This document shows, piece by piece, positions 2,193-63,700 of a stretch of DNA of 64,000 nucleotides. The notes under the pieces were generated by a model. That model ran no database searches. It was given only the letters and a program-made list of their open reading frames with translations, and had not been told where the DNA came from. The stretch is from the NCBI GenBank assembly GCA_963931925.1, contig OZ007570.1, positions 35,528,084 through 35,592,083 on the forward strand, read 5' to 3'. Each line of letters opens with the position of its first letter. The stretch's first letter is position 1. Source of the DNA: Onchidella celtica (taxonomy: Eukaryota; Mollusca; Gastropoda; Systellommatophora; Onchidiidae). The position numbers and the translations under genes were made by a program.

Positions 2193-2405
2193 GGAAGGAC
2201 TTCTGAATGCGTTCCATAGCCCGAGTGAAAACAGTATATAGCTACCCTGGCGGCTTTCCCTGATATGTCAATCTGACTAATGCCCAGACGAACATCGGCC
2301 TACAGCCACGATGATACAAACTGACTAGACCCTCACGTCGTTACATATCAATCTGACAATGCCTATGCACTTTTCGAGCTATGGAACGCATTCAGAAGTC
2401 CTCCC
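2193..2405. mobile_element. MITE A (8-bp TSD), core-sharing family
   Basis: This 213-bp element has inverted ends of about 35 bp: left GGAAGGACTTCTGAATGCGT..., right ...ACGCATTCAGAAGTCCTCCC. It is flanked by GTAAATAG at 2185-2192 and 2406-2413. The interior (2242-2369) is related to the cores of the MITEs at 17847-17946 and 34667-34770, including GATACAAACTGACTAGACCC. No coding capacity. An 8-bp TSD fits hAT-like or P-like transposases; the family is not assigned. Confidence 0.88.
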
Positions 2406-5302: not shown

Positions 5303-5304
5303 AC

Positions 5305-5665
5305 AGGCATGTTTGCCTACTACTCTTCTTGGATCCCAAACTTCTCTGACAAAATACAACCTCTTGTCATCAACCACACTTTTCCATTACCAAAGGAAGT
5401 GAAATGTGCTTTTGAACTGCTGAAGAGAGAGATAGAGAATGCTGCTGTTACTACCATTGACCAGGATATCCCTCTTGTGGCCGAAACGGATGCTTCTGAC
5501 ATAGCGATAGCAGCTACCCTGAATCAGAATGGGAGACCGGTTGCTTTTTTTTCAAGAACACTAAATCATAGTGAGAAGAAACACTCATCCGTCGAGAAAG
5601 AAGCATATGCCATTGTGGAGGCTCTCCGAAAGTGGAAACATTATTTGCTTGGAAAACATTTCTAA
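5305..5665 (+). pseudogene. RNase H fragment of Ty3/gypsy-type pol
   Basis: The frame begins at the end of the RT thumb/connection (motif FAYYSSWIPNFS), then shows the RNase H motifs TDASD (first catalytic Asp) and SVEKEAYAIVEALRKW (catalytic Glu). It ends at an in-frame TAA at 5663-5665, directly before the next RNase H motif, which is read in the following frame (VTDQ). The open frame extends upstream to 5057, but that part does not resemble pol. The upstream RT palm is missing, so no functional polymerase is encoded. Confidence 0.85.
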
Positions 5666-5668
5666 CTT

Positions 5669-7036
5669 GTGACTGACCAGAAAAGCGTTGCTTTTATGTA
5701 CAATAACACTCAGAAAGGAAAGGTGAAAAATGACAAAATCCAGAGATGGAGAATTGAACTGTCGTGCTACAGCTATGATGTAGTATACAGACCTGGCAAA
5801 GAAAACCATGCAGCAGACGCCCTCTCGAGGGGGTACTGTTCTACTGCTAACTGGAACGCTGAAGCACTGCAAGATCTCCACAACACACTATCCCATCCTG
5901 GGGTTACGAGGATGATGCATTTCGTCAAATACAGGAACCTCCCTTATTCACTAGATGAAGTGAAGAGAGTGTGTGCAAACTGTAGAATCTGCTGTGAACT
6001 AAAGCCTTCCTTCTACAAATCGACTGATGCTAACCTTATCAAGGCCACTCAGCCTTTTGAACGCCTTAGCGTGGATTTTAAGGGGCCTTTGCCTTCTTCC
6101 TCGAGGAACAAGTACCTTCTGACAATGATTGATGAGTACTCCCGCTTCCCCTTTGCTTTTCCATGTGCTGATATGAGCGCCTCAACCATAATCAAATGCT
6201 TCTGCCAACTCTTCTCTCTGTTTGGAATGCCATCCTATGTGCACTCTGATAGGGGCGCTAACTTCATGTCCAGTGAGCTCAAAGACTTCCTTCACAACAA
6301 AGGTATAGCTACTAGTCGCACTACTCCGTACAAAACTAGAGCTAATGGGCAAGTGGAAAGATTGAACGGTACGCTCTGGAAGACAATAACGCTTGCGCTG
6401 AGTGGCCTAGAGACCCATCAGTGGGAGCTCGTTCTCACAGATTCACTTCATTCCCTAAGATCTCTTCTGTGTATCGCAACAAACGAAACTCCGCACGAGA
6501 GAATATTTCGCTATAACAGGAAATCCACAACTGGTATAACTCTTCCAAGCTGGTTAACTACTCCTGGTACTGTGCTCATGAGAAGAAACGTGAGGACTTC
6601 GAAGTGTGACCCCTTAGTAAATGAGGTTGAACTGTTAGATTGCAATCATCTGTATGCTCATGTCAGACTTCGTGATGGGAGGGAGACAACAGTGGCTCTG
6701 CGCCACCTGGCACCACCTGGAGACACGACTACATTGCATACTCACACTGTTCCGAATGAAACGGCTCCTCCGCCGACAAATAATGACTTAAATGTGAATG
6801 ACCAGACAAATCAGATAATGCTTGTTCCTACACCAGCTGTTGTGCAGACCGGTACGCAAAATCGTAGCTTGGATCTAACAGACTCTCTAAACACCCCAGA
6901 TAGTAACCCTTCAACTTCACTCAGAGAAGAAAACTCTGAGATTCAACCTGAAACACCTGTTGAAAGTAGACCTAGTCCAAAATGCCGTCCTTTTGTTCGG
7001 ACCAGGGCTTATAACTTACGGAACAGAGAAGCTTGA
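5669..7036 (+). CDS. RNase H C-terminus and DDE integrase of the Ty3/gypsy-type element
   Basis: A 455-codon frame. Residues ~1-55 finish RNase H (ending HAADALSRG). Residues ~70-110 form an H2C2 zinc-binding finger (HNTLSH ... CANCRIC). The integrase core follows with its DDE triad visible in SVDFKGP, HSDRGANF and GQVERLNGT. The rest is a C-terminal region with basic blocks and a Ser/Thr/Pro-rich end. The first ATG is arbitrary because translation would normally continue from the upstream RNase H frame, which a stop codon interrupts. The integrase motifs are intact although the element is a truncated relic, suggesting a fairly recent insertion. Confidence 0.85.
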   Translation: MTDQKSVAFMYNNTQKGKVKNDKIQRWRIELSCYSYDVVYRPGKENHAADALSRGYCSTANWNAEALQDLHNTLSHPGVTRMMHFVKYRNLPYSLDEVKRVCANCRICCELKPSFYKSTDANLIKATQPFERLSVDFKGPLPSSSRNKYLLTMIDEYSRFPFAFPCADMSASTIIKCFCQLFSLFGMPSYVHSDRGANFMSSELKDFLHNKGIATSRTTPYKTRANGQVERLNGTLWKTITLALSGLETHQWELVLTDSLHSLRSLLCIATNETPHERIFRYNRKSTTGITLPSWLTTPGTVLMRRNVRTSKCDPLVNEVELLDCNHLYAHVRLRDGRETTVALRHLAPPGDTTTLHTHTVPNETAPPPTNNDLNVNDQTNQIMLVPTPAVVQTGTQNRSLDLTDSLNTPDSNPSTSLREENSEIQPETPVESRPSPKCRPFVRTRAYNLRNREA

Positions 7037-10700: not shown

Positions 10701-13700
10701 TGGGGTAGCTGTGTCTCGTGAAATTGAAATTGTAAGCCCAATTAGAACTACAAACTTTAAACAGTTCTTTCATTTAATAATAAACCTCATGTCTCATGTC
10801 ACTCATCTGATTTTGCTAACTTTTTCTCAATATCACTTAGTATGTTTTGTGAAGAGGTCAGCAATACAAAATAATGTAAACATGCTCTGCATCAACAACA
10901 ACAACAAAAAAGCCAAAGAAACACATTTTAGGCTTAGGGCAGCAAAAATCTGTAAATACTTTAGGACCACCCATGAAGTATGTGTGTCTGATTAGGATGA
11001 ATACACCCCCCCCCCCCAAAAATTGACTCATTAGAAACAATTTTTCAATCTAAAAATCCCCACCCCCCCACCCCATGTACGTTTTTTGTACACTGGGGGC
11101 ACCCCCTCCCCCTTCTGGGTATATGTACTTTATGCATGAACCCCCCCCCCCCTACTTAATGGGTAAATATTTTCTTTTGTTGTTTTTGTTGTCGTTTTTT
11201 AATATTTCATGACTTCACCACAGAAACTCACGTACACAGAGTACAAGAAAAACTCAGCCTGAGCACTGTGATATATCCACCACATTTGGAGGAATATGTC
11301 TTGAACATACGTGTGCAGTTATTCAGGCCTTCACAGTTATTGAATATTTTGGTCTTTTCTGTACAGTCTCCTTTTACCAGAATACAGGCTCCCCACTTGT
11401 TTTTTCCGAAGACAGCCTCGTCTATGTTGATGACATGACCCTCTGGACAAGTCAAAGTGACATTTCCAGGGGGGTCGGATTCCTTGCCACCAAAGCATTC
11501 CTTGACTCTGTTCCCAGCTGCAATTTGCAAAAATAAATAAAAATTCAGACGTAAGCTTGAAAATACTATCAGGCGAAATACTGAATCAATAAGTCTGAAT
11601 AGACTGATTACATAAATATAAAAAATATTCAACAATACACGCAACATTACACTCGTAGACTGAATTAAGCTTTCCTATTCAGGATTGCCACGGGTCGTGT
11701 CGACGTTCTATGTGGTGCTTTACACAGTCTATTCTTATGTGATAATGCTTTCCCTGGGAAAGTCTGCTGTGAGAGGGTCCCATAGAACCTGTGCCGCCAT
11801 GTCAGGATGTACAAGCATTGATTAATCCCGCAATGCCAACACCTTTCCGTTCAACTTAAAAATCTTTTACATTTTCCCCTTTCTTCACTTCTTCTTTTCT
11901 TGTTCTTCTTCTGAGTAGTAAAATGAAAATAAAAATGAATAAATATAGGCTACATGTATAAAAATTCGGACTCCACAAGGAGGCTCATGGGAAAGAATTT
12001 AGAAATACACTGTAGTAGTGGGTAATTTCACAATAAGAAGGATCAGGCATTAGAATAAAAATATAGGCAAAAGTGAACCACAAAGTAAAGCTTTCTAAAT
12101 ATTTTGTTTGTTTCGTAAGTAGCTATCATTCCAGTATCCTAGTTCCAACCCCAGACACTAACTCACGTTTAATAGGGCGCCACTAAAAAGGGGAACAAGA
12201 GTAAGAAAGAAGAATAAGACGAAGATTAACAACCCCACCCACTCGTTTCAATTAGGGGTACCGTACAAGGATCATCTCCCTTAAACGGCTGCAAGATTTA
12301 AGACAACATTGTGTGAACTGAAAACCGTAGGCTACATACAACGAGATATATATACACATATCGCCTTGAGCTGAGTGAGCAAATTCACTCATAACAATAC
12401 ATACAGGCTAAGTAGAGTGCGTAAACTATACTTTCATCCCATCTCAAAACATCCGTAGAAAATGAGTGACCACAATGATAAGCCCCACCAGCACTACTAT
12501 GCCTACATCGCCCTGAAAAAGTTAACTCAACATAACACACAGGCTCGATAAAGTGCGTAAACTATATAATACTCTTATCCCATCCCAAAACTTCCGTAGA
12601 AAATGAGCTACCACAACAATGATAAGCATCAGTTCTATTTGTCCGAAACGGTCTTATGAATCGTTAATTCTTCCCATATCTCTGACATTTGGAATAGGCG
12701 CGGGAAAGGGGGGAGGAGGAGAGGGGGCGCTGAAGAAAAGGTCCTCCGCAGTCTAAATATTTACAGACCTTCAGTATGTCAAGAGCCCAATATATGACAA
12801 ACCCATTATTAGACGCACGCAGTCTTTGTTGTCTCTACCATTGAGTTATTAACTGCCTTGTCTCGAACAATGTTGCGGAGATTGGCTGGGAGGCAGGTGG
12901 CGTCCGGGACTACACTGTTACATAAAATGCGACCCATAGACCAGAACACCGGTACATGATTGTATCAGTATTTATTCACATAACGCTCGCACTTCCCCGC
13001 GCCGCCATCCACAGACAGATAGATCCCGGATGACCTCCCGCAGAAAAGGAATCCCATTTTAAAAAATCAGAGTTCACATCTTTGTAGACATTACAGTAGT
13101 CACAGTTACAGTCCAAGTTACGCCAAATCTTTGCGCCAAAAAATGCAACAACCACCACCTTATGTGTCCTGATCATCTTTCGCCCCTCCCTCCCCCCCCC
13201 CACACACACAAAGAAAAACACGCACACTCACACAAACTCTTACTGTCTTATACACACATACAATACATGTACGGTAATATTATGTATTATATATAGGTAT
13301 ATTTGGGCCGAAACATCTGCTACTGGTAACATGTAATCCAGTCCAACCTGTTCCATGAACTGGTACGCTAGCATGGTATCAGTGGGCGTGCACCTGTCGG
13401 TGCAAACGGCCAGGGCGGAGGAGGTTTCATCTAACCCAACGGCCACATGCTAGGGCACAATGTGACCCTCAGTATTTGAGTCCTTCATATTGGCCCCCGG
13501 TAGCGGTGTGGTCATAGGCTTGTTTGCCTAAATCACAGACGAAGAATTGAGCAAACTTCCCGGACGCAGCTTCGAAGCTGGCGGCAGCAGGCCAGTGGTT
13601 GATTGATAGGGCAGATGGCAATATACCGTCACTCTGGCCTGGATATCGTGACACAGAGCATCCACCAGTATTGGTGTTCTTTGGTTTGGGTCTTTCACCC

Positions 13701-16700
13701 TAGTCAGTTGGGACTGCGAGGCTGTGGAGTAGCCTACAGGCAGCCGGTCAGGCAATATGACTGTCCCTCTGGCATCCTCCTGCACCTGGATACATTTCCA
13801 GTCGTCTTGACCCTGTCTTGCCACTTGGATAAGTTGTGTCCAGGCGAGAGAGTGAGTCTGATGTTTGCGCAGCTCTTTTTCACTAAAAACAAACTCTTTG
13901 CGCCAGTCTTAACACTCACCTCGTCTTCTTTCATCTTTGCGCCAGTCTTAACACTCACCTCGTCTTCTTTCCTCTCAAAATTCCAACGGCGATGGGCGAG
14001 TGCGGTGGCAGCAGGTTTGGATAGACTGGAAGCTGTTAGCAAAGACCTACACGTTGGTGGCTGTGGGCTATGGTCGCTTCATCGTCAATTGAAGTGGAGG
14101 CGTGGGGAGGCAGCACCCACAGTAGCTGAGCAGCCTTATTTAAGGATAGCACTGCTCACCTCAACTGAGGAAGGGGCTAGAAAAGGTGCCCTAAAGAAAG
14201 CCCACTTCACATCACCCTGACTGGTATACCGCGACCAGTGGGGATCCCTTTTTGCGGTCGAAACAAAAAGAAATTCAGCTTACTCAGGATAGGAGCCTGG
14301 AATATACGCACACTACAGGACAACTCAAACAACCCGGAAAGACGCACTGCACTTATTGCCATTGAGCTCAGCAGGTACAACCTGGACATAGTGGCACTCA
14401 GTGAGACCAGACTCCCTGATAGTGGCCAACTCAAAGAGCTCAGTGGTGGATACACCTTCTTCTGGAAAGGCAAGGGTGCAGTCGAACCGAGACAGCATGG
14501 TGTTGGGTTTGCAATTAAAAATGACCTTGTCAGAAACTTGCAGTCCATGCCAATTGAAATAAATGACAGGCTAATGACACTCAGGATCCCAGTTGGGAAA
14601 AGCCAGTCAGCCACCCTCATTAGCGCATATGCGCCCACCATGACAAACCCAGATGAAGCCAAAGACAAGTTCTATTCTGATCTAGAATCTGTCATATGCT
14701 CTGTCCCGGCAGCTGATAAGCTGATTCTCTTGGGGGACTTCAATGCTAGGGTTGGCTCAGAAATCTCAGCGTGGCCAAATGTTTTGGGCCCTCATGGAGT
14801 TGGTTCATGCAATAACAATGGGTTGCGCTTACTTACTTTGTGCGCTGAATTTGGCCTGTTCATTACCAACACAAATTTTAGTCTCCCCGTGAGAAACAGA
14901 ACGTCATGGATGCATCCCCGCTCAAAGCATTGGCATCTCATAGACTATGTCATTGTGAGGAAGACTGACAGAAAGGATGTCCTTGTAACAAAGGCGATGT
15001 GTGGTGCCGAGTGTGGAACTGACCACAGACTCATTGTTTGCAAACTCAGACTAACATTGAGGCGCAATAGACGCCCTCAAGGGAAAGCGCCACCTAAACG
15101 CCTAAATGTTTCAAAACTCTGCTCAGCTGAGAAACAGAGCGAGCTCTCCTCAGAACTCTCCTCAAAATTGGATTGCATGACTTTTGACCCTGAGAACATT
15201 GAACAGAGCTGGACTGACCTAAATACGACTGTACACTCTTGCGCCAGCAGCACAGTTGGTTTTCCTGTCCGCAAGCACCAGGACTGGTTCAATGATAATG
15301 ATAATGAAATCAAAGTGCTCATCAAAGACAAAAATAGTCTCATCCAAGCTCACTGCAGTGACCCCTCTTCCACAGCAAAAGCTGATGCACTGCGTGCATG
15401 TAAGGGTGTACTTCAGAAGAAGCTGAGGAAAATGAAAAATGACTGGCTTGAAGAGCGAGTAAGAGAAACTCAGAAATATGCCGACACAAACAACACTAGA
15501 AAGTTCTTTGAGAGCATCCGAGCTGTGTTTGGACCATCCCGCTCTGGCACTACACCACTTCTTGCGTCAGATGGTTCAACATGCATTGTTGAATTGAATG
15601 CCATAATTCAGCGTTGGGCAGAACATTTCGGAGGTGTGCTAAATCGGCCATCAAATATAAATACTGAGTCCATTGACCGCCTCCCTCAGACTCCTATTAA
15701 TGCAGCTCTTGCCAAGCCATTCACAGCAAATGAGACCCGGACTGCCACAGATCAGATGTCCTTTAACAAATCACCAGGCGTGGATTCAATTCCTGCTGAG
15801 GTGTATGCCTTCGGTGGAGAAAAGCTTATTGAAAGGTTGACCGAGTTGTTCAATCATATGTTGAAAGCAGGGAAGCTGCCACAGGACTTCAAAGATGCTT
15901 CAATCATCCATCTGTACAAAAACAAAGGGGACAGCCAAGTCTGTGACAACCATCGGGGAATCTCTCTACTTTCAATTGCTGGCAAAATATTGGCAAGAAT
16001 GCTTCTGAATCGCCTTCTTGATCACCTCTCGTCAAATGACTTGCTTCCCGAGAGCCAATGTGGCTTTCGTAAAGAGAGGGGAACGGCGGATATGATCTTT
16101 GCTGCCAGACAGATTCAGGAAAAATGCATGGAACAAAATAAAGCGCTGTACATCACATTTGTTGACCTCACAAAAGCATTTGACACAGTGTGTCGTGAAG
16201 GCCTCTGGAAAATCTTGGCGAAGTTTGGGTGTCCACCCGTATTCATCACAATAGTGCGCCAGTTTCATGATGGCATGCAAGCTGCAGTCAAAAGCAACGG
16301 CAGTGTTTCAGAGCCCTTTGCTGTCACAAATGGGGTAAAACAGGGTTGTGTCTTAGCCCCAACTCTGTTCAGCATCATGTTCTCTGCAATGCTACAAGAA
16401 GCCTTTAGCTCTCCTCCTCAAGGGGTAAGCATCAAGTACCGAACTGATGGCAGTCTATTCAACCTCAGGAGACTTCAGGCAAAAACCAAAACCAAAAGTA
16501 CTCAAGTCTGTGACCTACTATTTGCTGATGATTGGGCACTTCTGGCACACGATGAGGATAGCATGCAAAACTGTGTTGCTAAGTTCTCTAGTGCCTGTGA
16601 CAACTTTGGCCTCACAATAAGCACAAAGAAGACGGAAGTGCTCCATCAGCCTACTCCAGACGATAAGTATCCTGTGACCCCAAATATCAAAGTCCATGAC

Positions 16701-18597
16701 AGTCTTCTGAAGGTGTCGGAGAACTTCACCTATCTTGGCAGTACACTGTCTTCCACGGCTCGTGTTGATACTGAAATTCCCTCAAGAATCAGCAAAGCCA
16801 GCTCTGCATTTGGCAGGCTTCGAAAGAGAGTGTGGGATGTTGCCGGCATTCGCACAGACACTAAGCTGAAAGTGTACAATGCTGTGGTCCTTCCCACCCT
16901 ACTCTATGGGGCTGAAACCTGGACAGTGTACCAATCGCATGCCAGAAAACTAAATCACTTTCATCTGGCCTGCCTTAGAAAGATCCTAAGGATCAAATGG
17001 CAGGATAAAATTCCAGACACTGAGGTCCTCAATCGTGCCAAGGAATTGAGCATCTTCTGCCACCTGAAAAAAATTCAGCTACGTTGGGCAGGACATGTTG
17101 TCAGAATGCCCGACTCCAGACTCCCTAAGCAAATCTTTTTCTCTGAGCTCTCCAATGGAACGAGGAATGTTGGGGCCCCAAAGAGACGTTACAAAGACAC
17201 TCTCAAGCAATCACTGAAGGCCTTTGCCATTGATGTGAGTGAGTGGGAAAAGCTCTCGCTTGATCGTGCAAATTGGAGGGCGGCCCTTACCAGAGGCAGC
17301 AAAGCATGGGAAGCTGACAGAGTCCAGCAGGCTATCAAAAAAAGAGAACGGCGCAAGAAAAGGCCCAGTGGTACTGAACCAACGGAGCACTCTTGTCACT
17401 TATGCGGAAGGGTCTTCAGGGCAAAAATAGGACTTATCAGTCACATGAGAAGCCATAAGTCATGAAAGAACAGTCTTTCCATTCTGTCCTCTGTGTCCTT
17501 TACTTCTCTTTATTGTCCATGTGTTGAAATTCTCAACAATTTCTGTTCTTTATTCCTCTGGTGTTGTTAAGGTCATCATCATACCTGATGGACGAACTAT
17601 TATTATTATTTGGGCCGAATACGACCTAAATAGCACAAAACCCTGGTTCCGGGCTATTTGGGCCCGTAGGACGAGTTTGCAGTTTGCACTGTTCTGGCCT
17701 TTTGTTTTTTTTTTAAACACAGAATTTGTGTCCGTACAATATTGCCTAAAAGTAGCGTCAATTACCAACGCATTTTCCGGTAGCCGGTAGCGTCAATCAT
17801 CACCGCATTTTGCGGTGGCCATTGACGGTAGGTCGATCGCTAATGGCTACCCCAGCGCCTTTTCGCCTGATTGGTCAAGCTGACTATCGCCCATTGATAC
17901 AGACTAGACCCTCAAGCCCCCAAGTCCATCTGACCATTCCAATGCACACTTGAATCCACAATGGACACAGTATTCCGCGGTGGCAATTGACACTCCCTGG
18001 CCTAAAATACCTTCGGCCCAAATAGCACAGCACCGGGTTGTATGGGCAGTATTCGGCCTAAATATATACTTCCTATCTAAAAAAAATAATGATGTGAAGA
18101 CCACATGGGAAAAAATAAGCACAGTCACAAAGAGTGATTTTCGCCTCTATCCCCACTATGTACAGGCTTGATTCATCAGCGTCGTCTCTGCAAAATCAAA
18201 GTCAGAAATAAGACCTGCAATCATGAAATATTAGAAATCACCTTTTCAGTCGCAAGAGGGAATTAGCTGTGGACTTTCAAACTTTAAAAATCGATATTTT
18301 GTTTCATAGCTTTGTGACAATGGTTGTTTTTCCCACGAGGTCTTCATATACATACATATAATTATATATACTTAAAAGGACTCTTATTATGGCCTACTGC
18401 TAGAGCCCTAATGTCTATGTATAAGGTTAGGGTGACACTAACATATTAACTGCATGATCTAGACAGCCCAGGACAGAGGCAAACAAACCTGCAATAACGA
18501 AACTGCTCCAGAGTACCACCAGGATCAAGCCAAGCTGTATGAGGTCACACCGCCCCGGCCACTGCCGCCTCCTATTACCGCCAGAGGCCATCCTCAT
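7793..18597 (-). CDS. Single-SUEL-domain lectin-like type I membrane receptor (5 exons)
   Basis: Exons, 5' to 3' on the minus strand: 18597-18489, 11517-11236, 10195-10055, 9474-9381, 8501-7793; 1335 nt, 444 residues, every junction in phase with GT-AG introns. Residues 1-37 form a signal peptide with an Arg-rich start (GGNRRRQWPGR) and hydrophobic core (LGLILVVLWSSF); an in-frame TAG lies 30 nt upstream of the ATG. Residues ~38-130 are a SUEL/Gal_Lectin domain with eight Cys, TCPEGHVINI and the ANYGR-like AVFGK. Then come a Thr-rich stalk, a ~25-residue TM helix (GLIIGCVIASVITVIALI) and a 236-residue polar tail with a Cys patch (SCVICICLEQ) and NNHHHSHDN. SUEL domains bind L-rhamnose/galactose-type glycans in known lectins. 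EVA-1/EVA1C proteins also pair SUEL and TM domains, but they have two lectin domains. No kinase or adaptor domain is seen. The exon 2 donor is the weakest boundary. Confidence 0.75.
9381..9474 (-). other. Transmembrane exon of the lectin receptor
   Basis: 94-nt exon between a tgcacag acceptor and a gtaagt donor. It encodes a glutamate followed by a long run of Ile/Val/Leu/Ala and a VIRRLC stop-transfer end. Phases (2 bases in, CA left over) fit the stalk exon before it and the cytoplasmic exon after it. Confidence 0.8.
10985..11160. repeat. Poly-C-rich tracts in a receptor intron
   Basis: Several C runs (10 at ~11007, 12 at ~11142) with interspersed C-rich sequence. Low-complexity DNA between the stalk and lectin exons; no coding signal. 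Confidence 0.7.
12359..12632. repeat. Tandem duplication, ~148 bp period, two degenerate copies
   Basis: Copies 12359-12506 and ~12507-12632 share blocks such as GTGCGTAAACTATA, CATCCCAT, CCGTAGAAAATGAG and CAATGATAAGC. Divergent, so old. Lies in the receptor's first intron. Confidence 0.75.
13896..13971 (+). repeat. 39-bp tandem duplication in the LINE 5' region
   Basis: Two adjacent copies (13896-13934, 13935-13971) begin CTTTGCGCCAGTCTTAACAC. Tandem units in LINE 5' regions can carry promoter function, but nothing here proves that. Confidence 0.85.
14238..17465 (+). CDS. LINE ORF: AP endonuclease - reverse transcriptase with C-terminal C2H2 finger
   Basis: A 1075-residue intact frame. 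The N-terminal ~240 residues form an APE endonuclease with GAWNIRTL (Asn), SETRLP (Glu), SAYAPTM, LGDFNARVG and GTDHR. The RT (~480-800) shows NHRGISLLS, FVDLTKAFDTV, GVKQGCVLAPTLF and the catalytic FADDW near 761. The C-terminal part has LRWAGHVVRMPD and ends in a C2H2 finger, CHLCGRVFRAKIGLISHMRSH, probably for nucleic-acid binding. No gag-like ORF was identified. The layout is RTE-like, but the terminal C2H2 finger is unusual, so the clade is unsettled. An intact frame suggests a young, possibly competent copy. Confidence 0.9.
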   Translation: MGIPFCGRNKKKFSLLRIGAWNIRTLQDNSNNPERRTALIAIELSRYNLDIVALSETRLPDSGQLKELSGGYTFFWKGKGAVEPRQHGVGFAIKNDLVRNLQSMPIEINDRLMTLRIPVGKSQSATLISAYAPTMTNPDEAKDKFYSDLESVICSVPAADKLILLGDFNARVGSEISAWPNVLGPHGVGSCNNNGLRLLTLCAEFGLFITNTNFSLPVRNRTSWMHPRSKHWHLIDYVIVRKTDRKDVLVTKAMCGAECGTDHRLIVCKLRLTLRRNRRPQGKAPPKRLNVSKLCSAEKQSELSSELSSKLDCMTFDPENIEQSWTDLNTTVHSCASSTVGFPVRKHQDWFNDNDNEIKVLIKDKNSLIQAHCSDPSSTAKADALRACKGVLQKKLRKMKNDWLEERVRETQKYADTNNTRKFFESIRAVFGPSRSGTTPLLASDGSTCIVELNAIIQRWAEHFGGVLNRPSNINTESIDRLPQTPINAALAKPFTANETRTATDQMSFNKSPGVDSIPAEVYAFGGEKLIERLTELFNHMLKAGKLPQDFKDASIIHLYKNKGDSQVCDNHRGISLLSIAGKILARMLLNRLLDHLSSNDLLPESQCGFRKERGTADMIFAARQIQEKCMEQNKALYITFVDLTKAFDTVCREGLWKILAKFGCPPVFITIVRQFHDGMQAAVKSNGSVSEPFAVTNGVKQGCVLAPTLFSIMFSAMLQEAFSSPPQGVSIKYRTDGSLFNLRRLQAKTKTKSTQVCDLLFADDWALLAHDEDSMQNCVAKFSSACDNFGLTISTKKTEVLHQPTPDDKYPVTPNIKVHDSLLKVSENFTYLGSTLSSTARVDTEIPSRISKASSAFGRLRKRVWDVAGIRTDTKLKVYNAVVLPTLLYGAETWTVYQSHARKLNHFHLACLRKILRIKWQDKIPDTEVLNRAKELSIFCHLKKIQLRWAGHVVRMPDSRLPKQIFFSELSNGTRNVGAPKRRYKDTLKQSLKAFAIDVSEWEKLSLDRANWRAALTRGSKAWEADRVQQAIKKRERRKKRPSGTEPTEHSCHLCGRVFRAKIGLISHMRSHKS
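18489..18597 (-). other. Exon 1 of the lectin receptor: signal peptide
   Basis: Coding part of exon 1. It starts at ATG 18597-18595, with a second in-frame ATG two codons later, and ends with a phase-1 G before a gtttgt donor. It encodes a basic n-region and a Leu/Val-rich core ending SSFVIAG, typical of a cleavable signal peptide. The phase matches the CT-starting exon at 11517. It is too short to stand out as an open frame and was found by looking for the missing N-terminus. Confidence 0.7.
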
Positions 18598-32598: not shown

Positions 32599-34625
32599 GA
32601 TGGGCCTGACCAAAGGTTTGTTACACAAGTGTTCCACTGCCATATAAAATGAGAATGGACATAGCAACAAAGTATCTCGAGACACTGAATCATAGCCAAC
32701 TTCTGGATCATAAACAATCTGTCCCTCCACTACAAAAAAATACTGTACAAATCCATATAGATCTCACTTTTTCTCTCAGCGATCTTTTCTTGCTACGGTA
32801 GTTACATGACCTTGTAACGCAATAAGAGTGATAAGTTATGCACAGATGTTCATGTGACATTTAAGAAAAGGGGGAGAGAGTAGGCTAGACATATAGACTA
32901 TTTGGTATTCTCTTCCATCACACCAAAGGAGAGATACTGTATGTATTCCGAAAGGAATAAAAGGAGAAAAGGCACTAATATTTAACAGTTGCTGTCGCTA
33001 CATAACATAAGGCCCACAGGTAGGTGTGTGGAAAATGTAGGCCTATGTGTAAACATGCAGATTTGACAGGACCTGCATTTACCTTTTCGTGTCACGTATC
33101 GTCATTATTGTTGTATCCGATTTTCATTCAATCGTCCCAAGCAAACTCACTACATATATTAGTAATAACCTCGAGATCTGGTCCAAACAGATTATATGGA
33201 TAATTTATTATGGTGTCTTGGGGATGCTGGCCAGGTTTATCTCTCTACATTTAGCCCTACGCAGGCTTACTGCATCACCGAACGAGGCCTGGCGTTGCTT
33301 ACACTTAGACTTCGGCCCATATACAAGACCTAGCTGTGATTCATTGCTTGTGTTTATACCGTGCACTAAAATATGTCTGTGCTCAGGCATTTGCACAATA
33401 ATAAATGTGTATGATTTCTATATTAAGAAACCTCAACCAGCTGTGTAGCTTATTGATGTCAGAATTGGAGCCAACGGATGAAAGCTGAGATAACTTCATC
33501 TCATTTAGCCTATTTGCATAAGGAAGATATCAGAAATACTTAATTGTGTGTACTCACTATTACTGAAATTTTATGTATTTAAAAGTAAATCAAAATCGAT
33601 AATTTATAGCCCACAAAAATGACAATGAGATCAGTGCTGCCAGTGTTTGGAAAATCGAAGGGAAATATATATGCTTTTGGCTCGTGACACAGTGTTGCGG
33701 ATATTGAGTTAGGAGAAAGCACGTCACGCGATAAGGTCACATTGTGTTAGGAAAATTAAAAGCAAGACTGAAGACAGAATATAACAGAACGACAAGACAG
33801 CAGGAGACCCTATGGCCTACCACCAGCGCCCACCAACCATCCTCTGTCGCGGGTAAAAAAATTTAATTTTACGTATCAACATTACTTCTTCTCCAAGTTC
33901 CGGATCTGGAACAGATGTCGACGATCATGGTTCGATACTCATTCCTCCGCTCGGATGCTCTCAAAAAGCCTATTATTGTCCTGGTTTTTCGTTGTCGCCC
34001 ATCTGTTCAAACTCTCTAGATATGTTATTCTTAGTCTACCTCTGCTTTTTTTTGCCCTCTACAACATAGGCTACTGCATTAATTTTTTGCTGCGTCGCCA
34101 GGAAAGAATAACCTTTTGATCGATTAGGAATGTTAAAAGGCACGGTCTAAGAGCATCGGAAGGACCACATCAAGCTGTTAGGCCAACGATGACATCTTTT
34201 TAATACTAATAATGAAAGTGCGATAATTCAAAATCATATTTCGTTTCGGTTTAACCTTCCGACACATATTTCTACTTTCCAAGATAAATAAGCACAAAGT
34301 TTGGAAAAGCTTGATAAAATGAAACAGTCACAGTAAACAGTAAAAGTCAAGTCACAAGACTTTATTTTCAAGTTAACTGAGACTTCGGAAAGAACGGTGA
34401 TTATTAATATTAATATTATATTGTGGAATATGTAACAGCTTCCAAAGACACAGGGCCCGTGAATGCTAAACATTCGATAATCGGCTTGAGAATGTCAGTC
34501 AAAGATAGATCTATTTATTTCCAATATCATCCCGTGCTATTTGTTTAGGCCTACAAGACAAAGAGTCAAGACAAATGGCGAAATAACAACCGTTTCTTTC
34601 ATAGGCTAGAGACTGATGTTGAATC

Positions 34626-34849
34626 GGAAGGTCTTCCGCCCGTCCGCGCCAGTCAAGAAAACACAACTACCCCAGCCCCTTTTCGCCTGATTAGTCAATC
34701 TGACTACCGCCCATTGATACAAACTGACTAGACCCTCACGCCCCCAGGTCCATCTGACCATTCCAATGCAGGTTGTTTAAGCTTATATCTTAATCATACT
34801 ATGTTTGTTAACTTTTTGGTAAGTGGCGCGGACGGGGGGAAGACCTCCC
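34626..34849. mobile_element. MITE B (8-bp TSD), core-sharing family
   Basis: A 224-bp element. The left end GGAAGGTCTTCCGCCCGTCC and the inverted right end GGGAGGTCTTCCCCCCGTCC continue to GCGCCA, 26 bp with two mismatches. The duplication GTTGAATC at 34618-34625 and 34850-34857 is perfect. The core (34667-34770) matches MITE C closely and MITE A more distantly. The first ~11 terminal bases resemble MITE A; the rest of the terminal repeat is unrelated. Confidence 0.9.
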
Positions 34850-34857
34850 GTTGAATC

Positions 34858-35873
34858 ATTTCCCATTATAGATTTGACAGTTTTTCAAATCAACTTCAAA
34901 CCCAGATTCATTGTATGCATCGGCCTGCCAATAATAATAGAGATCTAGATCGAGAACTAGTCTATGAGTATGTCATTGTCAAGTGTGTTTGACCAGTCTT
35001 GTGAAATTGACTTAATTGTGATAGCATAATAAATAATATAATTAATATTGACGTCTGGAGCTATCTTTTTTTTGAAGTTCACCCTTCAGAAATGTTTTTT
35101 TTTTCTCCTTTCACTGCTATAATATAGTTTTGGACAGTTCACTTGGTAGGGCTCACGACGAAGTGTAGTAATTAGTATGCTCTTCCATGCAGTCTATAGA
35201 TATAAATACAATGTGCAAGATGATTCTGTTGCAACTACAGAGCTCTTGCCCTGACATGTTTTAACCCTCTTAGCACGTGACCTTTCTAAGTATTCTGTTT
35301 CCAAGAATACGCAGGGGTTTTGTAGAGACAGGGAAAAGAAAGTGACTAGTCACAGAAAATCACGCTTTTCACAAGGTAGGAGTTATCAGGCCCTATTACA
35401 TATAATTTATAGTTTTTTGATGGGAAGACGGAAGAGAACAGAGAATGAGAATATGAATTTGAAACAGGGGAAACATTTAGTCTAAATTATAAATGTAATT
35501 GCAATTCAAAACATAATTGTCAACAACAAAAAGTCAACTGTTGAAGCAAGAAAACCAACTTGGAGAAACTTTGCATGCAGTAACTCACATTTTTATGTAG
35601 TCCTGGCCTTTTTACACTTGTGTTTTTTTGTCATGCAAACCCCATGGAGGCCTCTTTCATCAGAGCTAACTGCAGGAGTATCTAGATTTAGATCAGATTC
35701 ATCATTTGATGCCATTGGTTTAAAAAAAATCACCAGATCTAGATCTAGATCTAGCCTCAGAAAAATATTCTCAAAAAATATAACTGGTCTTGTCCAGGAC
35801 AACTCTAGGAATTCACTTTGTTCAGGCCAGAAAGATTGTGGGAGTAGCTTCCCTTGAAGAAGTAAAAAGTAGT
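34858..35873. other. Non-coding DNA between MITEs
   Basis: Contains a GATCTA hexamer repeat (35738-35757). A minus-strand frame (35593-35886) matches no known family. No gene supported. Confidence 0.35.
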
Positions 35874-48700: not shown

Positions 48701-51700
48701 AGTTCCTCAGCTTCTGGGATGTCACGGACAGCAAGCTCAGGTCAGTCATTTATACCACACAACTATGTCAGTTAACTTTTTGGTTACAGTAAATGCTGTA
48801 CATGAAGAAGCCAGTGTGAGGTCTGACTTTGCCTAATTTTGAATGGTTTACATTTTAATTTTTGCTATTGGAATAAATTTTGTGCTATTTTTCACTTCAA
48901 TAAAAGACAAAATTCAAGTACTTTTTATCAGTTTCACCCGTCTTTTGATTCTTTCGCTACAGTTTCAAGTGGACAATTTGAGAAATTCAGGAAGCAAACT
49001 CAGGAGGAACTAAAAAACACATTAGATCAGCTGCTAGAGGTGAGTAATGGTCAAGTTGCTTCTGTCCTTTACACAGACATAAGCTGGATATTCTTGTTTT
49101 GAATAATGTTCTGAATTTTTAAGGGTAAACCAGGGGATAGAACTACTAAAGGATCTTCTGGCTGTTTCGCACCTTTATATTATAAATATAACGTAAATTT
49201 GGTCTTTGACCCATTGTTTCTTATTTTATTAGTCAGAAAAAAGATGGAACATGAAATTTTGTGAAGGGATCTTCTGATTCTTTCCTTCCTTTTTTTTTTA
49301 TCCGTAAAATTTATTTGGTCTTTGATTCTTTATTTCTTATCATATTTTGAAGGGAAAAGCCAGTAGATGGAACATAAATCTGGACATCAGTGCCCCAAAG
49401 TTTGTCATACCAGAGAGCACTTCAGCTTCCAACCCCCAACTGGTTGTGATGGACTTGGGAAATTTCAGAGTCAATACAATCTCATCCCTCAATGATCAAC
49501 AAAAGAAAGGGAAGACCAAAGATGATGATGGAGAAGGTAAAGAGAAGACTATTTATTGAGTTTAGTGATTACCATGTTGAATGTAATTTCAGTTAAGACC
49601 TCTGTCACTGTGTTGGCAATTTTTTTTTCATTTAATCCATGAACCTAAATAAAATACTGCAACTGCAGTTCAGTAGTGCTGTTAATGAATTTTTCTATGC
49701 TGTGAAAGTTTGGATATTCTGGTTTTGATGTCTTATTTTGAATCTTAAAGCGACATTAAAATCAAGGTTCAGATTCTGCCAGTACTATTGATAATATTGT
49801 TGCCCTGTGTTTACTGCCTGCTTAATATATGGAGATATGTAGATTAAGACTGCTGATATTTTTAATGTTCAGGTCAATTTCAGTTTCCTGTAAGATGTGT
49901 GGCTGACTTTAATGTTTGAGTTTCTTAGCAGAATTTGACATTTATATTTCATCGAATTCATGAAGTAGTTGTTTTCAGTTTACACTGGCTTGAAAGTAGA
50001 CTGTATTGCTTAGATATTAATCTCTTTTTTGTTTTGTTTCAAGTGGGACTATATAATTGTCAAAGTTGCTGATATATTTTCAACCACAGACAAATTTGAG
50101 ACACCTCTATCTACCCCACCGAATGAGGAAGATGAAGAAGTGAAGAAAACCATGACATCAGGAATGAAGAAGCCACAGAGTTATGATTCTCTCTCAGAAG
50201 CATCTGCAGATTTCATGTTCCAAGACAGGCTATATGAAAAGTAAGGCTTTTAAAATGAAGAATTACAACTGTATTGTTCCTCTGTTTCCCAGGAGCAGGA
50301 AAGAGACACATTTTATCATCATCATCATCATTGCCTTTCTCACCCTGGATCAGGGTATAGGCCACCAACAAACACTTTCCATCCCTCTCTATCATGGGCC
50401 AGCCTCTTTACATTATTCCAAGTCTTTCCGGTTCGTTGCACATCATTTTCTCTGGCTCTTCTCCACGTTCCGCGCGGCCTTCCTCTTGATCTCTTGCCCT
50501 GGGGATTCCAATCCAATACCTTCTTCGCGATGCTGTTTCCTGGCCTCCTGAGAGTGTGGCCGATCCATCTCCATCGCCTCCTACCAATTTCCTCTCTGAC
50601 TGGGCTCTGTCTTGTTCTTTTCCAAACAATTTCATTGCTGACCTTGTCTGTCCATCTGATCTTAAGTAGCTTCCTCAAACATCTGTTGATGAAAACTTGG
50701 ATTCTCTTTATGCAGGCCTGGGACGCATTCCAAGTCTCACATCCATACAACAGGACTGACTTCACGTTCGAGTTGAATATCCTCAGCTTTGTTTTTAGAG
50801 ATATATCCTTGGTTCTCCAAATCTTGCTTAAGGACGTGAAAGCTGCCTGTGCCTTTCCAATTCGTGCTTTGACTTCTGCCTCTGTTCCTCCCTTATTGTC
50901 AATGATACTACCAAGATAGCAGAAGGACTCTACATCTTCCAGTGGTTGATCTCCTACTTTGACTTGTTCGCTTGGGGGTGCAACAATTTTTAGGACCTTC
51001 GACTTCGCAGGATGTATCCTCAATCCGATAGATTCTGAAATTTTGTTTAGAGCTGTAGTCTTTGCTTGCATCTGGTCGTGTGTGTGCGACAATAGTGCCA
51101 AGTCATCTGCAAAATCTAGATCGTCCAGCTGTGTCCATGGGGTCCATTGTATGCCATTTCTTCCTCCATTGGTGGTTTCTTTCATAAGCCAATCAATCAC
51201 CAGAATAAACAGAAATGGGGACAGCAAACAACCCTGCCTAACACCAGTCTTGATATCAAAGCTGTCAGTAAGCTCACCATCGTGTACAACTCTGCAACTT
51301 GTCCCCTCGTACATGCTCTTGATAAGATTCACCATCTTCTCTGGGATTCCATAATGTCTCAATATTCTCCACAGCGTTTCTCTATCGATGCTATCAAAGG
51401 CCTTCTCGTAGTCAAGGAAGTTCACTATCAGTTGGGAGTTCCACTCTAGCGACTGCTCTACTATAATTCTCAGCGTGGCGATCTGGTCGGTGGTTGATCG
51501 ATTACTCCTGAAACCAGCTTGCTCCTCACGAAGTTTTGGGTCTGTTGCATTCTGTATTCGCTTGAGAATAATCCGATTGAAAACCTTTCCTGGGATGGAG
51601 AGAAGTGTGATTCCTCTGTAGTTACTACAATTGCTGAGGTCCCCTTTTTTTGGAAGCTTCACGAGGTGTCCTTCCTTCCAGTCCTTTGGAAACTTGCCTC

Positions 51701-54700
51701 CGATCCAAATCCTCGAGAATAGTGAGTGCAGACCCTCTGCAGCCCCAGCAGCATCTGCCTTCAGCGCCTCTGGTGGGATCTGGTCTGGTTCAGCTGCCTT
51801 GCCTCGATTTAACTGCTTTATGGCATCATTAGTCTCTGCTTTAGTCGGAGGGTCGCAACTGATCGGTAAATCATTTCTTGCGGGTAGAATGTCGGGTGGG
51901 TTGCTTGGTGGAGGTCTGTTCAAGAGGCTACTAAAATGTTCTATCCATCTTTTTGCCTGAGCTTCCTTTCCAAAAATAGCCTTCCTGTTGTAATCCTTGA
52001 CAGGAACTTCCGGTTTTCCATATTTTCCAGCAAGAGTCTTTGTAGTCTGGTAGAGGATCCTCGTGTGTCCTCCTGTTGCTGCCTTCTCTGCTTTCTCTGC
52101 TAACATTCCTATGAACTCCTCTTTGTCTTTTTTAATTGATTTTTTGACCTCTTTAGCTGATGCTCGGTACTCTTCCTGGTTACCAACTCTTGAGCTTCTT
52201 GTACGACTTGCATTTACCTGTTCTTTTAGGTCTCTTCTTATCCTTATCAAGTCCAGTGATTTTTGACTGATCCATTCCTTGTGTTCCACTTTCTTTTCCC
52301 CAAGAACATCCTGACATGTCGATGTAAATACTCCTTTTACCTTAGCCCAGTGAGTCTCCAAATCTACTGGCTCTTCGAGGTCAACAAGGTGTTTGAATCT
52401 ATTCCTCAGTGTCAGCTGGAACTCTTCCTTCTTGTCTCCATCCAGAAGGCTCACTTGAAACTTTCTCCTCTTTGTTCCTGCTTTGGTACCTTGTTTCTTG
52501 AGGCGGAGTTTGAGTCTTGCCAGCAGCATGTGATGGTCAGATCCAACATCAGCTCCTCTCTGTACTATGACATCCTCCAGTGAGCGTCTGAATCGTCGGG
52601 TGATGCAAAAGTGGTCAATCTGGTTTTCAGTTACTCCATCCGGTGAAATCCAAGTGGCCTTATGGATCCTCTTGTGTGGGAATACTGAACCTCCAATCAC
52701 ATAGCTGTTAAATGCGCAGAAACTTGCAAACCGCTCTCCATTCTCATTCATTTGTCCCAAACCATTGCACCCCATAATGTCCTCATACCCTGTATTGTCC
52801 TGTCCTATCTTGGCATTGGCGTCTCCCATTATAATGTTCACATCTTTTCTTGGCAATGTGTCAACTATTTCCTGAAGCTGGTTGTAGAAATCGTCCTTGT
52901 CCTCATCGGTTGCTACATTTGTTGGGGCGTATATCTGCACAATGTTCATGTTGATGTTCTTGTTCTTTGTAGTAAATGATGCCAATATAATTCTCCTTCC
53001 GTAGGGTTCCCATCCCCTCAGTGACCTCTGGGTGTGCTTGCTCAAGATGATCGCTACCCCTTCTGTATGCTTTTTGTCCTCCCTTCCAGAATACAAAATC
53101 TTTTCCCCAGAATTAAGTTGTTTCAGTCCGGACTGTATCCAGCGGGTCTCGCTAACTCCAAGTATGTGCAGTCTGTATCGCCTCATCTCCATTGTAACCT
53201 GGGCACTCTTTCCTGCTTCATACATGGAGCGGACATTCCACGACGCAATCCGGAGTGACTTGTTTGATGAAGGAGCAGTCGGGCCAGTGGAGTCCTTTCG
53301 GCTTTGACACATTTTATAATGTATCTGAAATACACTGACTGCAACTTTAGTGTCATGTCATTTCTTCAAATTCTTATATGCCCGCAGAAAGGTCACAAAG
53401 CTTTAGTATACGGAATTTGTAATCCTCCAAGTTAACACTCTTTGTAAAAAGGCATATAATTATATATCTGTGCCCAAAAATTATGTTACTCATTAAGTAT
53501 AGAGAGTTATTTCTGATTCCAATCAAAACTCACATGAACTCGCATTGCGAATACACAAAATACTAGTACTTTCAAATTTTCTAATTTTGAGTTTAAATTT
53601 GGATAACACCAGATTGATAACTGCATTGTGCCCAACAAAGCTTTCTCTGTCAGGTCTGATCACTGAAACAGGATAGTTTACAATAAGATTCTGACTATGA
53701 AAATGACAGCTGTAGGTCAAGGTAATTTGAAGTGTTGTCTCAATGGAGATTTGAGGCAAGCATGAAGAAACTTATTTCTCTTATTTTAGACAAGACTCGC
53801 CTTCAAGTTATATGACATGTCTAATTTTCAGAAGTCTTTGAGGTGAAGGATTTATCAGGTTTTGGAAAACTTAGTAATGCATTTGCTATTACTTGGCAAG
53901 CAAATTCCAAAGAATCTGTCAATTGCGTTTTTCTCTATAACTCTTCAAAGAAAATAAATAGGATATTGTAAGTACTTTCCACTGCCATGTGTCATATTTA
54001 CAAAAGATGGCCCAGCCTTTATGATATCATTGCTTTTAATTTATCAGTTGACATGTATTGACAGCTTGTCACTGATCTAAATGTATGCGCTCATTTTTTC
54101 ACAGGTATCGGATTGGTTTGACTGAGATGCAAGTTCTGATAGGTCGACTCCATGATAACTGGCGCCATGCATATGCTAGAGGCACAAGTCTCATGCATAT
54201 AGTTGACAGATTCAGCATATCAGTACAACTGGATAGGTCAGTGTCTGTGTTATTTTTATAAGTTTTTCTGGCATCTGTCAGTTTTCCTTGAATGTTAGAA
54301 AATTGTAGAACAGGATTTCCTGTAATTTTAGGACGAAGTTTGCTGATATCTTTTGCAGGAGAGTGGCAAATCTGCTCTGCAACTACATTCTAACAATGCT
54401 GTAAAATTGTCCTCGAAAATTCTCACAAGATTTCAACCATTTTGTAACTCCCATTATTGAAATGGAGTTTTAGTTGCAGTGTTTTGTGTTCTATTAAAAT
54501 GATAGAGTTTTATATTGGAACATGCCTAGATTTTTCCATAAACTTGACATTTTTTTTTAACGAGATACTTGATGTCATTTTCCATGTTGTTTATGAAATG
54601 ATAGACCTTTATGTATATTTAAAATATCTCTTCTGGAATGTTCTATTAAGAAGTTTCATCAGTTTGAATGTCTCGAGGCTCTGAAATTTGACTATCACTT

Positions 54701-60700: not shown

Positions 60701-63700
60701 AATTTCATATATACTTTTTGTAAAATCATAGATTAAAAAATTTATGAGTAAAAGCTCTTGCTGAGCAAATATACAGAAACTGGTATGGATCTTTCAAACC
60801 TGATAGAAATAATTTCACAAGATAAGCTAGGGTCTTACAGCTCAGTTCATTTTATAAGTACCGCCCATTTTGAACAAAGGTATGGCTATTATATAAAATG
60901 AATCCAAAAATCCTCTCTGACACAGAGCAAGGACATTGTGCATGTCAGTGCTGACTTCAAAAGACTGAATGTCATGATGGTGCGCTTCTTGTCAAGTGAT
61001 GGCCACAAAACTGCCAGGAAAGTGGCTACAGCAACCATGTCATCAGCTAAACTGCAGGCAGAGTTAGGTAAGTTTGTGACATGCCCCATGTAACAGGCAT
61101 AAGTTTGTGCCCTGTCCCATGTAACATGTATAAGTTTGTGTCCTGCCCCATGTAACAGGCATAAGTTTGTGACCTGCCCCATGTAACAGGCATAAGTTTG
61201 TGACCTCCCCAATGTAACATGTATAAGTATGTGACCTGCCCTATGTAACAGGCGTAAGTTTGTGACATGCCCCATGTAACTTGTATAAGTTTGTGCCCTG
61301 TCCCATGTAATAGGCATAAGTTTGTGTCCTGTCCCATGTAACAGGCATAAGTTGATGGTCTGCCCAATGTAACAGGCATATGTTTCTGACATCCCCATGT
61401 AACATGTATAAGTTTGTTTCCTGCCCAAGGTAACATGTATAAGTATGTGACCTGCCCCATGTAACAGGCATACGTTTGTGACATGCCCCATGTAACTTGT
61501 ATAAGTTTGTGGCCTGTCCCATGTAACAGACATAAGATTGTGACATGCCCCAGCTAACAGGCATATGTAGAAGTATGAGCTTTCTGTTTTCTCCAGATTA
61601 ATTCAACTTGAAATCATTTGATCATCCTTGTCCAATATTCATACTGTAATGTTTAAGTGAAGCTCTAAAGCAGTTGGGGTTTCAGGCATTTTTTATTTGT
61701 GTCATGAAAGCGTAGAATCACAACCTTTTTTTTATAAAGCAAACTTTACTTTTATGAGAGAATTGATTGTTGACTGTTACATTATAGTCAATGTACAGTG
61801 CAGGTTTCCAATTGATGCTTCTTTGCCAGTGAGAGCTCTGAAACTGCATTTTAAACAAAAATGGCTTGAAGAAGTAGGTGCAGACGTAAGTGAATGGTTT
61901 ACGAGACATAAAGAGAATTTAGTGCAGTCATCTCATGCATTTCATTTGTCTTTCATTCATGTTATAACAGTAATCATCACAAACATCTCTTCAGTGTTCA
62001 AATTTACTGATGTAAAGATGTAGATCTGATTCAGGAACATAGATTTTATGTCTTGTTATATTTTAAAAAAAAAACAAAAAAAAAACGAAAAACAAATTAC
62101 ATGAATATTTACGTTCTTAACATTTTTTGTAACAGATGAGAGTTGGGAAGTAGAGGGCAGCCTTGGTGGTCTGCACTTGTTAGATGTGACACCAGAGGGC
62201 ACTTTGTACCAGCAAGTTGTCAGTATTGGTCAGTTTCAAGAGATGGATTGTACCACAGGAGGCATCATTGTGGGTGTTCCCACCTCTCCTGACCCAGAAA
62301 TGTTCCAGACAGCTATTGATGAGAAAGCATTCTCAGGTGCACCCTCAGGGTCCAGAAAAAATGCTTGTACCTTTGTTGTTAGGGCACGACAACAGCACAA
62401 ACAAAATCAGGTAGATACCAGTTGTGTGAGAAATTGTATTGTAAATTATATCTTTCATAGGTGCCACTTTTCCGCTATATAGCGGTTTTCCGCTATTTGA
62501 ATTTTTTCCAACTTCCAATTTATTTTTGTGATTAAATGATATTTTATGTTTTATTGACTATCAATCTTATATGTAACTGTCTATTTCAGTGAGTCAAGGA
62601 AAATTAATAAAATAGCACTTTCGGTTCCGCCAAATTGTGTTATTTATGCTTGATTTTTAAAAAAAATTCTAAATTAGGAAGGGGCAACGCCCCCCTCCCC
62701 CCGGTGAGTCGATAAGAAGTTCCTCCTTTTTCATAAATCCCGGGTGGCACCTATGATCTTTGCAAAATGATTTTACATGCTTTCCAACAGCTTTTCTTTC
62801 TTATTAGTAGTTTTTCATGTTTTATTTATTTATTTTTCTGCTAGTGTTTTTTGCCTTTTTTTTTTTTTACACACTTGTGAATTCGTTTGAAAAAGCAAGA
62901 ATTCTGTTTTTTTTGTTTGTTTTTGTTTTCATATGGTCCTCACTTAAGTAAACAAGAGGGGAAACTATTCATCCCCTTAAAATGACAAGGTTCTGTCTCC
63001 ATTTTTTTGGCTAAACACTAATTCCACAGGCCTTCTCCATTATGTTTGAAAGTATTGAGCGGATTCGGTGTGTAATTTGTAAGTATTACTGAAATAAAAA
63101 AATGTCGTATCTCCAAAAGATATGAGCAAGTGAAAGTTTAATTATCAATTTCTGAGAAGTTGATGGAAGGGAGTAAGAACTTTGTCATTCCAAGGAGAAG
63201 TAATTTGAAGTCTTGCATTGATGTTGTGTAAATCATATTGAGTTGGCTGTTGTGGTAAATTTGCACCATTAAGCATATGAACCTCTTTCATGCCTAGCTA
63301 GTTCCCACCTCTGTTTTGCAGGATCTGGGAATTGCATTGGGTGGGAGCATCTTGGATTTATCCAGAGGAGAACCAGAGATGATTGAAGCACTTTTTGACA
63401 TGGCTGCCCTCAGCTACATACATTGCCCGAAGTTTTTAGATGAATTGGTGGATTGTGTCTCAGAGTTCCGTGATTATGTGACCAAGGTGGCTACTTCAAT
63501 CAAAACAGCAGCCACAGAAGTTGCCATGGGTATGGTTGGAGTGCGAGGAGAAAAAGATGGGACAAATGTGGACGCATCCCTCACACTACATAACATCCAA
63601 CGAGATCAGTCACTGGCAGATATTACAAACACAGTTTTGCTAGAGGACAATTCTTGGATGCTGCAGGGTAGTTCTGCTGTTGAGCCCAATAAAACCATTA

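Follow-up and report, generated by a model that had tools for sequence, protein, structure and literature searches.

Introduction

Ends are the usual basis on which MITE families are defined and masked. A lineage which keeps its middle and changes its ends would escape such a scheme and be broken up into many 'families'. Among retrotransposons, a conserved middle with changing heads and tails characterizes CORE-SINEs and other SINEs that have conserved domains.

Galileo, a foldback-like transposon of the P superfamily, forms chimeric copies with recombinant, extended terminal inverted repeats (TIRs) in Drosophila mojavensis (PMC3573991). One central region is found with the TIRs of three subfamilies (D, E and X), all versions of one transposon with long TIRs, a 7-bp TSD and a known transposase, and ectopic recombination or conversion is proposed for the exchange of ends (PMC3573991). 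Another example is the MITE MER6/MER6A, which is of chimeric origin, with a V-SINE conserved domain inside a DNA-transposon MITE (PMC6887750). The pearl family and DTC84 of bivalves are called modular MITEs, and DTC84 contains a conserved palindrome (PMC5139131).

The elements described here were found in a window of 64,000 nucleotides from Onchidella celtica (C4:35528084-35592083 of a 1.14-Gb genome in 43 contigs; loci and contigs are designated below by L and C numbers). They carry related cores inside different ends, and we consider it likely that they belong to a MITE lineage that has been re-ended again and again through nested capture and the copying of arms, the core being its inherited middle. 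No description of this system was found in open-licence papers.

Core-bearing elements of the window

MITE B occupies positions 34626..34849 (+; 224 bp) of the window, with the TIR GGAAGGTCTTCCGCCCGTCCGCGC / GGGAGGTCTTCCCCCCGTCCGCGC and a perfect 8-bp TSD, GTTGAATC, at 34618-34625 and 34850-34857. Its core, designated the B subtype, spans 34667..34770 (+) and contains CTGAC boxes starting at 34696, 34720 and 34750. The 3′ interior (34771..34822, +) lies between the core and the right arm, and part of it is also present in core-less B-ended elements of two other loci, L017 and L029. A 23-base match to this 3′ interior at 48762-48784 was dropped, as no inverted repeats surround it. MITE A (2193..2405, +; 213 bp) has the TIR GGAAGGACTTC(C/T)GAATGCGTTCCATAG, the 8-bp TSD GTAAATAG and a core of the A subtype at 2242..2369 (+), in which boxes 1 and 2 are spaced 48 bases apart versus 24 in B. 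The arms, as reported with lengths that slightly overrun the elements, measure 35 nt at 91% complementarity in A and 46 nt at 78% in B. The inverted ends and perfect 8-bp TSDs assigned to both elements in the preliminary description are exact, and the two share their outermost ~11 bases, GGRAGGWCTTC, as it had claimed.

Perfect 8-bp TSDs flank 24 of 30 MITE B copies (22 of 29 when element lengths are fixed), and the 40 scored among 2445 first-look candidates in the genome all stand at 99-100%. Mean divergence from the majority is 0.64% among 27 full-length copies, a value biased low by the choice of the best-scoring ones. The MITE B family looks young. Both A and B are MITEs: they are short, possess TIRs and TSDs, and exist in many near-identical copies, this last property being documented on B.

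Most of MITE C lies at 17607..18064 (+), where inverted outer arms of 16 nt (17607-17622 and 18049-18064; 94%) flank a core of the B subtype. This core (17847..17946, +) has a 4-base deletion inside the 20-mer GATACAAACTGACTAGACCC, which is present in both A and B. The left end is interrupted by a LINE-like element: a left fragment of MITE C (13296..13311, +) precedes the insertion, and 13 identical letters, TATTTGGGCCGAA, stand on both sides of it. The true left end was probably near 13296 and severed by the LINE. Inspection of the flanks of MITE C revealed no TSD, and its exact core junction occurs once genome-wide, in the window itself. MITE C is thus a real element with inverted arms around a core and a LINE-split left end, though one with a single-copy core junction and no TSD found.

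The LINE-like element that splits MITE C contains a 1075-codon open frame at 14238-17462 (+; GTG start as listed) with endonuclease and reverse transcriptase domains and, by eye, a zinc-finger-like end. A second, uninterrupted LINE-like frame of 990 aa is located at 50343-53312 (-), with endonuclease, RVT_1 and DUF6451 domains. Two adjacent frames at 5057-7036 (+) encode RNase H and integrase domains left over from a retroelement, and an open frame of repeated 23-residue units at 60889-61533 (-) is probably a translated tandem repeat.

Relatedness and abundance of the core

Local alignment scores between cores are 71 (A/B), 50 (A/C) and 162 (B/C), far above the maxima of 24-26 reached in 300 shuffles for each pair; the three cores are truly related and have the same orientation in A, B and C. 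The 20-mer GATACAAACTGACTAGACCC has 5995 exact matches genome-wide (2946 + 3049) and its reversed control has none, so its abundance is not due to chance. An exact 35-mer from the start of the A-type core has 819 matches, and the exact junction between the B left arm and the core has 430; set against 5995 cores, these counts make exact B junctions a small fraction of the whole. That the shared core reflects assembly error or chance similarity is hardly credible at all: exact junctions recur on many contigs with zero control matches, the junction of C being the one that does not repeat, and no evidence in favor of error or chance was found.

When the window was searched with a core profile together with 29 B-copy loci and 20 random loci of 10 kb each, 46 core matches emerged, of which 30 fall in B elements, two are those of A and C in the window, and 14 lie in the flanks of B copies. 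These 14 represent 13 elements, since the G-ended element of L019 counts twice. The 20 random loci yielded no core in this search, with 1.05 exact 20-mers expected.

Ten terminal types

The preliminary description distinguished three terminal types. All three exist, C with the limits given above, but the count was too low: the core sits in ten in a non-random census made up of the window, a further 29 loci with B copies and three that were chosen for their paired cores. It is therefore not tied to a single type of end. The A ends (GGAAGGACTTCCGAATGCG) are found in the window, in L004 and twice each in L024 and L005. B elements have the GGAAGGTCTTCCGCCCGTCCGCGC ends. The D ends (GGAAGGAGTTCCGTACTCGAGCGC) occur in L010, L018, L007 and L053 and on a cut copy in L029, and the E ends (GGAAGGAATTCCGTACGAGATCCG) in L003 and L053, in two elements 99.6% identical to each other. 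The remaining types come from single loci: F (GGCGCTTTTTCGGTTGTTCCCACC) from L029, G (GGTAAACGTGCAGTATCGCGACAT) from L019, H (ACATGAAGCTACACAAAGCAGTTC) from L008, K (GGCACTACCGGATAAGTGCGG) from L051, M (TAACGCTGTGGCTATTCTTACGG) from L052, and C from the window only.

An exact TSD of 8 or 9 bp accompanies at least one copy of eight of the ten types. It measures 8 bp in A, B, D, F and K and 9 bp in G and H, while the E-ended elements have 8 bp in L053 and 9 bp in L003. For M and C, no TSD was demonstrable when the flanks were examined. The exact D junction occurs 432 times genome-wide.

Separation of ends and core

Ends and core separate in both directions. In the GGRAGGNNTTCC group (A, B, D and E), ends are combined in differing ways with left arms, core subtypes and right arms. 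For instance, the left D end is identical over 26 letters in five copies; it precedes an A-type core in L007, L010, L018 and the cut copy of L029, and the D-ended element of L053 has a B-type core that is 98.1% identical to B over 106 bases. The D-ended element of L007 and the E-ended element of L003 are 92% alike in their 3′ interiors and differ in core subtype. Beyond this group, G and H have 176 interior bases in common (98.3%) and no shared ends, and a stretch of 146 bases is 100% identical between M and G. At positions 60-316 of L053, a complete E element with an 8-bp TSD lies inside the D-ended element that carries the B-type core.

B ends also exist on elements that lack the core. One occupies 1501-1894 of L029, with the TSD GATCTAGA and a B copy within it; another lies at about 1135-1329 of L017, between the flanks ATAAAATC and ATAAACTC, which by reading are alike at 7 of 8 positions; a comparison whose bounds were one or two bases off gave no TSD there. 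Both have a different interior (CTAAAGAGGGGACTTTTGAG...). Exact B left arms number 514 genome-wide; on C1, 32 of 57 are followed 22 bases on by the exact core junction, and the other 25 are mutated or core-less. The shared interior with differing ends that had been proposed is thus real, multi-copy and reassorting, as recurrent junctions and mixed modules demonstrate.

Intact copies of A, B, D and E have GGAAGG as the left end and GGGAGG as the right end, letters from which mutated copies and core-less elements deviate, and the orientation of the core relative to the ends is constant. Because the end letters and the orientation of the core do not change, the pattern points to common descent of A, B, D and E with TIR blocks altered jointly on both arms.

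The core could alternatively be an independent mobile or recombining cassette moving among MITE families. Its presence in very different elements, including C with its unrelated ends, would suit such a cassette, but neither a TSD nor ends were seen at the edges of the core in the copies read, and outside C the bases next to the core are common to at least one other type. This reading is disfavoured and appears highly improbable.

Nested layers and copied arms

F, H, K, G and M seem to form a single lineage in which older ends were wrapped or replaced and the inner right end was damaged. The F element holds the whole A left end and core, and the A right end is absent. Bases 1-248 of the 258 of F are found inside H at 93.6% identity, with the left end of F intact and the final bases missing from its right end, while K contains an F remnant with the A left end and core. 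The right inner stretch of F, GACTAATATAGCCTAGGTAAGT or a near version of it, is carried by G, H, K and M, and on this ground these four are grouped with F in one lineage. H is thus arranged around F, around the A left end, around the core, and K around the F remnant, around A, around the core.

These chimeras have themselves multiplied, as their exact junctions recur many times: 229 genome-wide for F>A, 33 for K>F and 8, on six contigs, for H>F. The G junction is found at 18 places, namely eight inverted pairs and two singles. Over C1-C5, the range of the F>A places listed, an F>A place lies 39-41 bases from each of the four H>F places and 11-14 bases from 11 of the 12 K>F places. All three layers are seen in order at C1:85556404 / 85556445 / 85556490.

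The right arm of G repeats its left arm in inverted orientation, and the copy runs on into the core. K and M likewise have inverted arms that include the core, of 129 nt and 146 nt, respectively, both at 98%. The pattern of an A arm followed by a CTCACCC core occurs at 449 places in the genome, and the first 100 of these include 33 M-like -/+ pairs with a spacing of exactly 80, one with a spacing of 81, and two G-like +/- pairs spaced by 197. M-like core pairs are frequent. Cores are also clustered: the 87 kb of sequence flanking B copies at up to 1.5 kb contain seven exact 20-mers, versus 0.46 expected. Among the first 100 core places of C1 (0-12 Mb), 13 of 99 gaps are shorter than 3 kb versus 2.5 expected, some of these short gaps lying between the cores of an element that is itself palindromic or nested. 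The clustering therefore indicates that elements insert near or into one another, which provides raw material for the exchange of ends.

A simpler account would be nesting alone, in which a very abundant core MITE landed in many other MITEs by chance and its inner ends decayed later, with no copying or reassortment. Nesting is clear in F, H and K, where one inner end or both are damaged. The excess of neighboring 20-mers indicates that insertion of elements near one another is common, and the E element with its 8-bp TSD within the D-ended element of L053 fits as well. However, A, B, D and E have the same core orientation behind different TIR blocks, D and E share interiors, and the arms of G, K and M are inverted copies that reach into the core. 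Nesting had been named as a possible cause of the core similarity; it holds for F, H and K, but it does not by itself explain A, B, D and E or the interiors common to D and E. Chance nesting as the complete explanation is unlikely.

Evidence for a special role of the core

The core might instead be a selected module, such as a cluster of transposase-binding or host-factor sites, which boosts the amplification of whatever ends are attached to it. The idea resembles proposals made for the conserved domains of SINEs. It is consistent with the four of six A copies compared (without L024b and the cut copy of L005), in which the core has 15 differences in 512 positions and the arms 21 in 340 (Fisher 0.024). 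Pairwise differences among seven A-lineage elements, 7.2% in the core and 11.4% in the arm, with the K row misaligned near the end of the core, are also in its favor, as is the occurrence of the CTGAC box three times in A and three times in B. In 27 B copies, however, the core (16/2808) does not differ significantly from the non-TIR rest (18/1836; p 0.12), and it is the TIRs that differ least (5/1404). Selection on the core is accordingly weakly hinted at by the A copies and not by those of B. The longest perfect run between the A and B cores, 26 bases, was matched by 1452 of 20000 shuffles and is not significant as a sign of constraint, the fold of the core is not significant, and B ends exist without the core. 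Selection for such a module is an improbable explanation.

The fold-back role suggested earlier for the core itself is unsupported, its single-strand DNA fold (z -0.94) being no better than that of shuffles. No Rfam family matched positions 34500-35000 up to an E value of 1, and ARAGORN (bacterial code) found no tRNA in the window from which a tRNA-derived SINE part could be recognized. The comparison with CORE-SINEs made in the preliminary description consequently stands for the modular pattern only. Because the signs of constraint and folding are weak, the core may simply be what remains in the middle, and a special role for it is weakly supported.

Proposed mechanism of end replacement

These elements show nesting with loss of inner ends, modules in differing combinations, arms copied in inverted form, and chimeras that have been amplified. 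We infer from them a large lineage of non-coding, TIR-bearing transposons (MITEs) that would spread while repeatedly gaining ends. By one route, a core element would insert into or beside another transposon and lose its own right end, so that the outer ends come to carry the core; loss of the inner end would stop the cargo from leaving. By a second route, template switching, or else conversion between the arms, would copy a new end onto the opposite side and so create a matched pair of TIRs. Some of the new ends of G, K and M could also be pre-existing tiny MITEs invaded by a core element, for which no copying of the outer arm is needed.

Each matched pair of new ends would recruit a different helper transposase, and the lineage could keep spreading for this reason; presumably, re-ending went along with a switch of helper. 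Domain scans of six proteins of the window revealed retroelement domains in five, nothing in one, and no transposase. A more active part for the core is conceivable, with its inverted words and palindrome-forming arms favoring the acquisition of foreign transposon ends from A to F and then, in parallel, to H, K, G and M, across transposases that produce 8-bp and 9-bp TSDs. This addition is rather doubtful.

Repeated re-ending by capture and arm copying suggests that a genomic parasite can keep spreading by gaining new ends. The elements appear to move to another helper when theirs is lost. The layered, multi-copy junctions give the relative order of events, and the survival of non-autonomous elements after the loss of a helper therefore becomes testable.

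Comparison with known systems

CORE-SINEs are retrotransposed without TIRs, whereas the elements described here carry the TIRs of DNA transposons and TSDs of fixed length. A head derived from tRNA, 5S or 7SL is also not in evidence, as the window has no tRNA and the surroundings of MITE B match no Rfam family. MER6/MER6A differs in that one SINE domain entered one mariner MITE (PMC6887750), whereas a single core recurs here across ten types of MITE and a SINE head was not detected. The pearl elements contain internal satellite-like repeats, unlike the single or inverted core with changing termini seen here (PMC5139131).

Galileo is a close precedent by analogy, as in both systems the same center is found with several types of TIR. 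The TSDs here are 8 or 9 bp and not 7 bp, however, and the ten end types, several of them mutually dissimilar and partly layered, belong to elements of about 200-460 bp whose junctions number from 8 to hundreds, C having only one. Set against these reports, the system is of a kind already known and is a new variant of it, with the novelty lying in the number of unrelated ends, their layering and the copy numbers reached.
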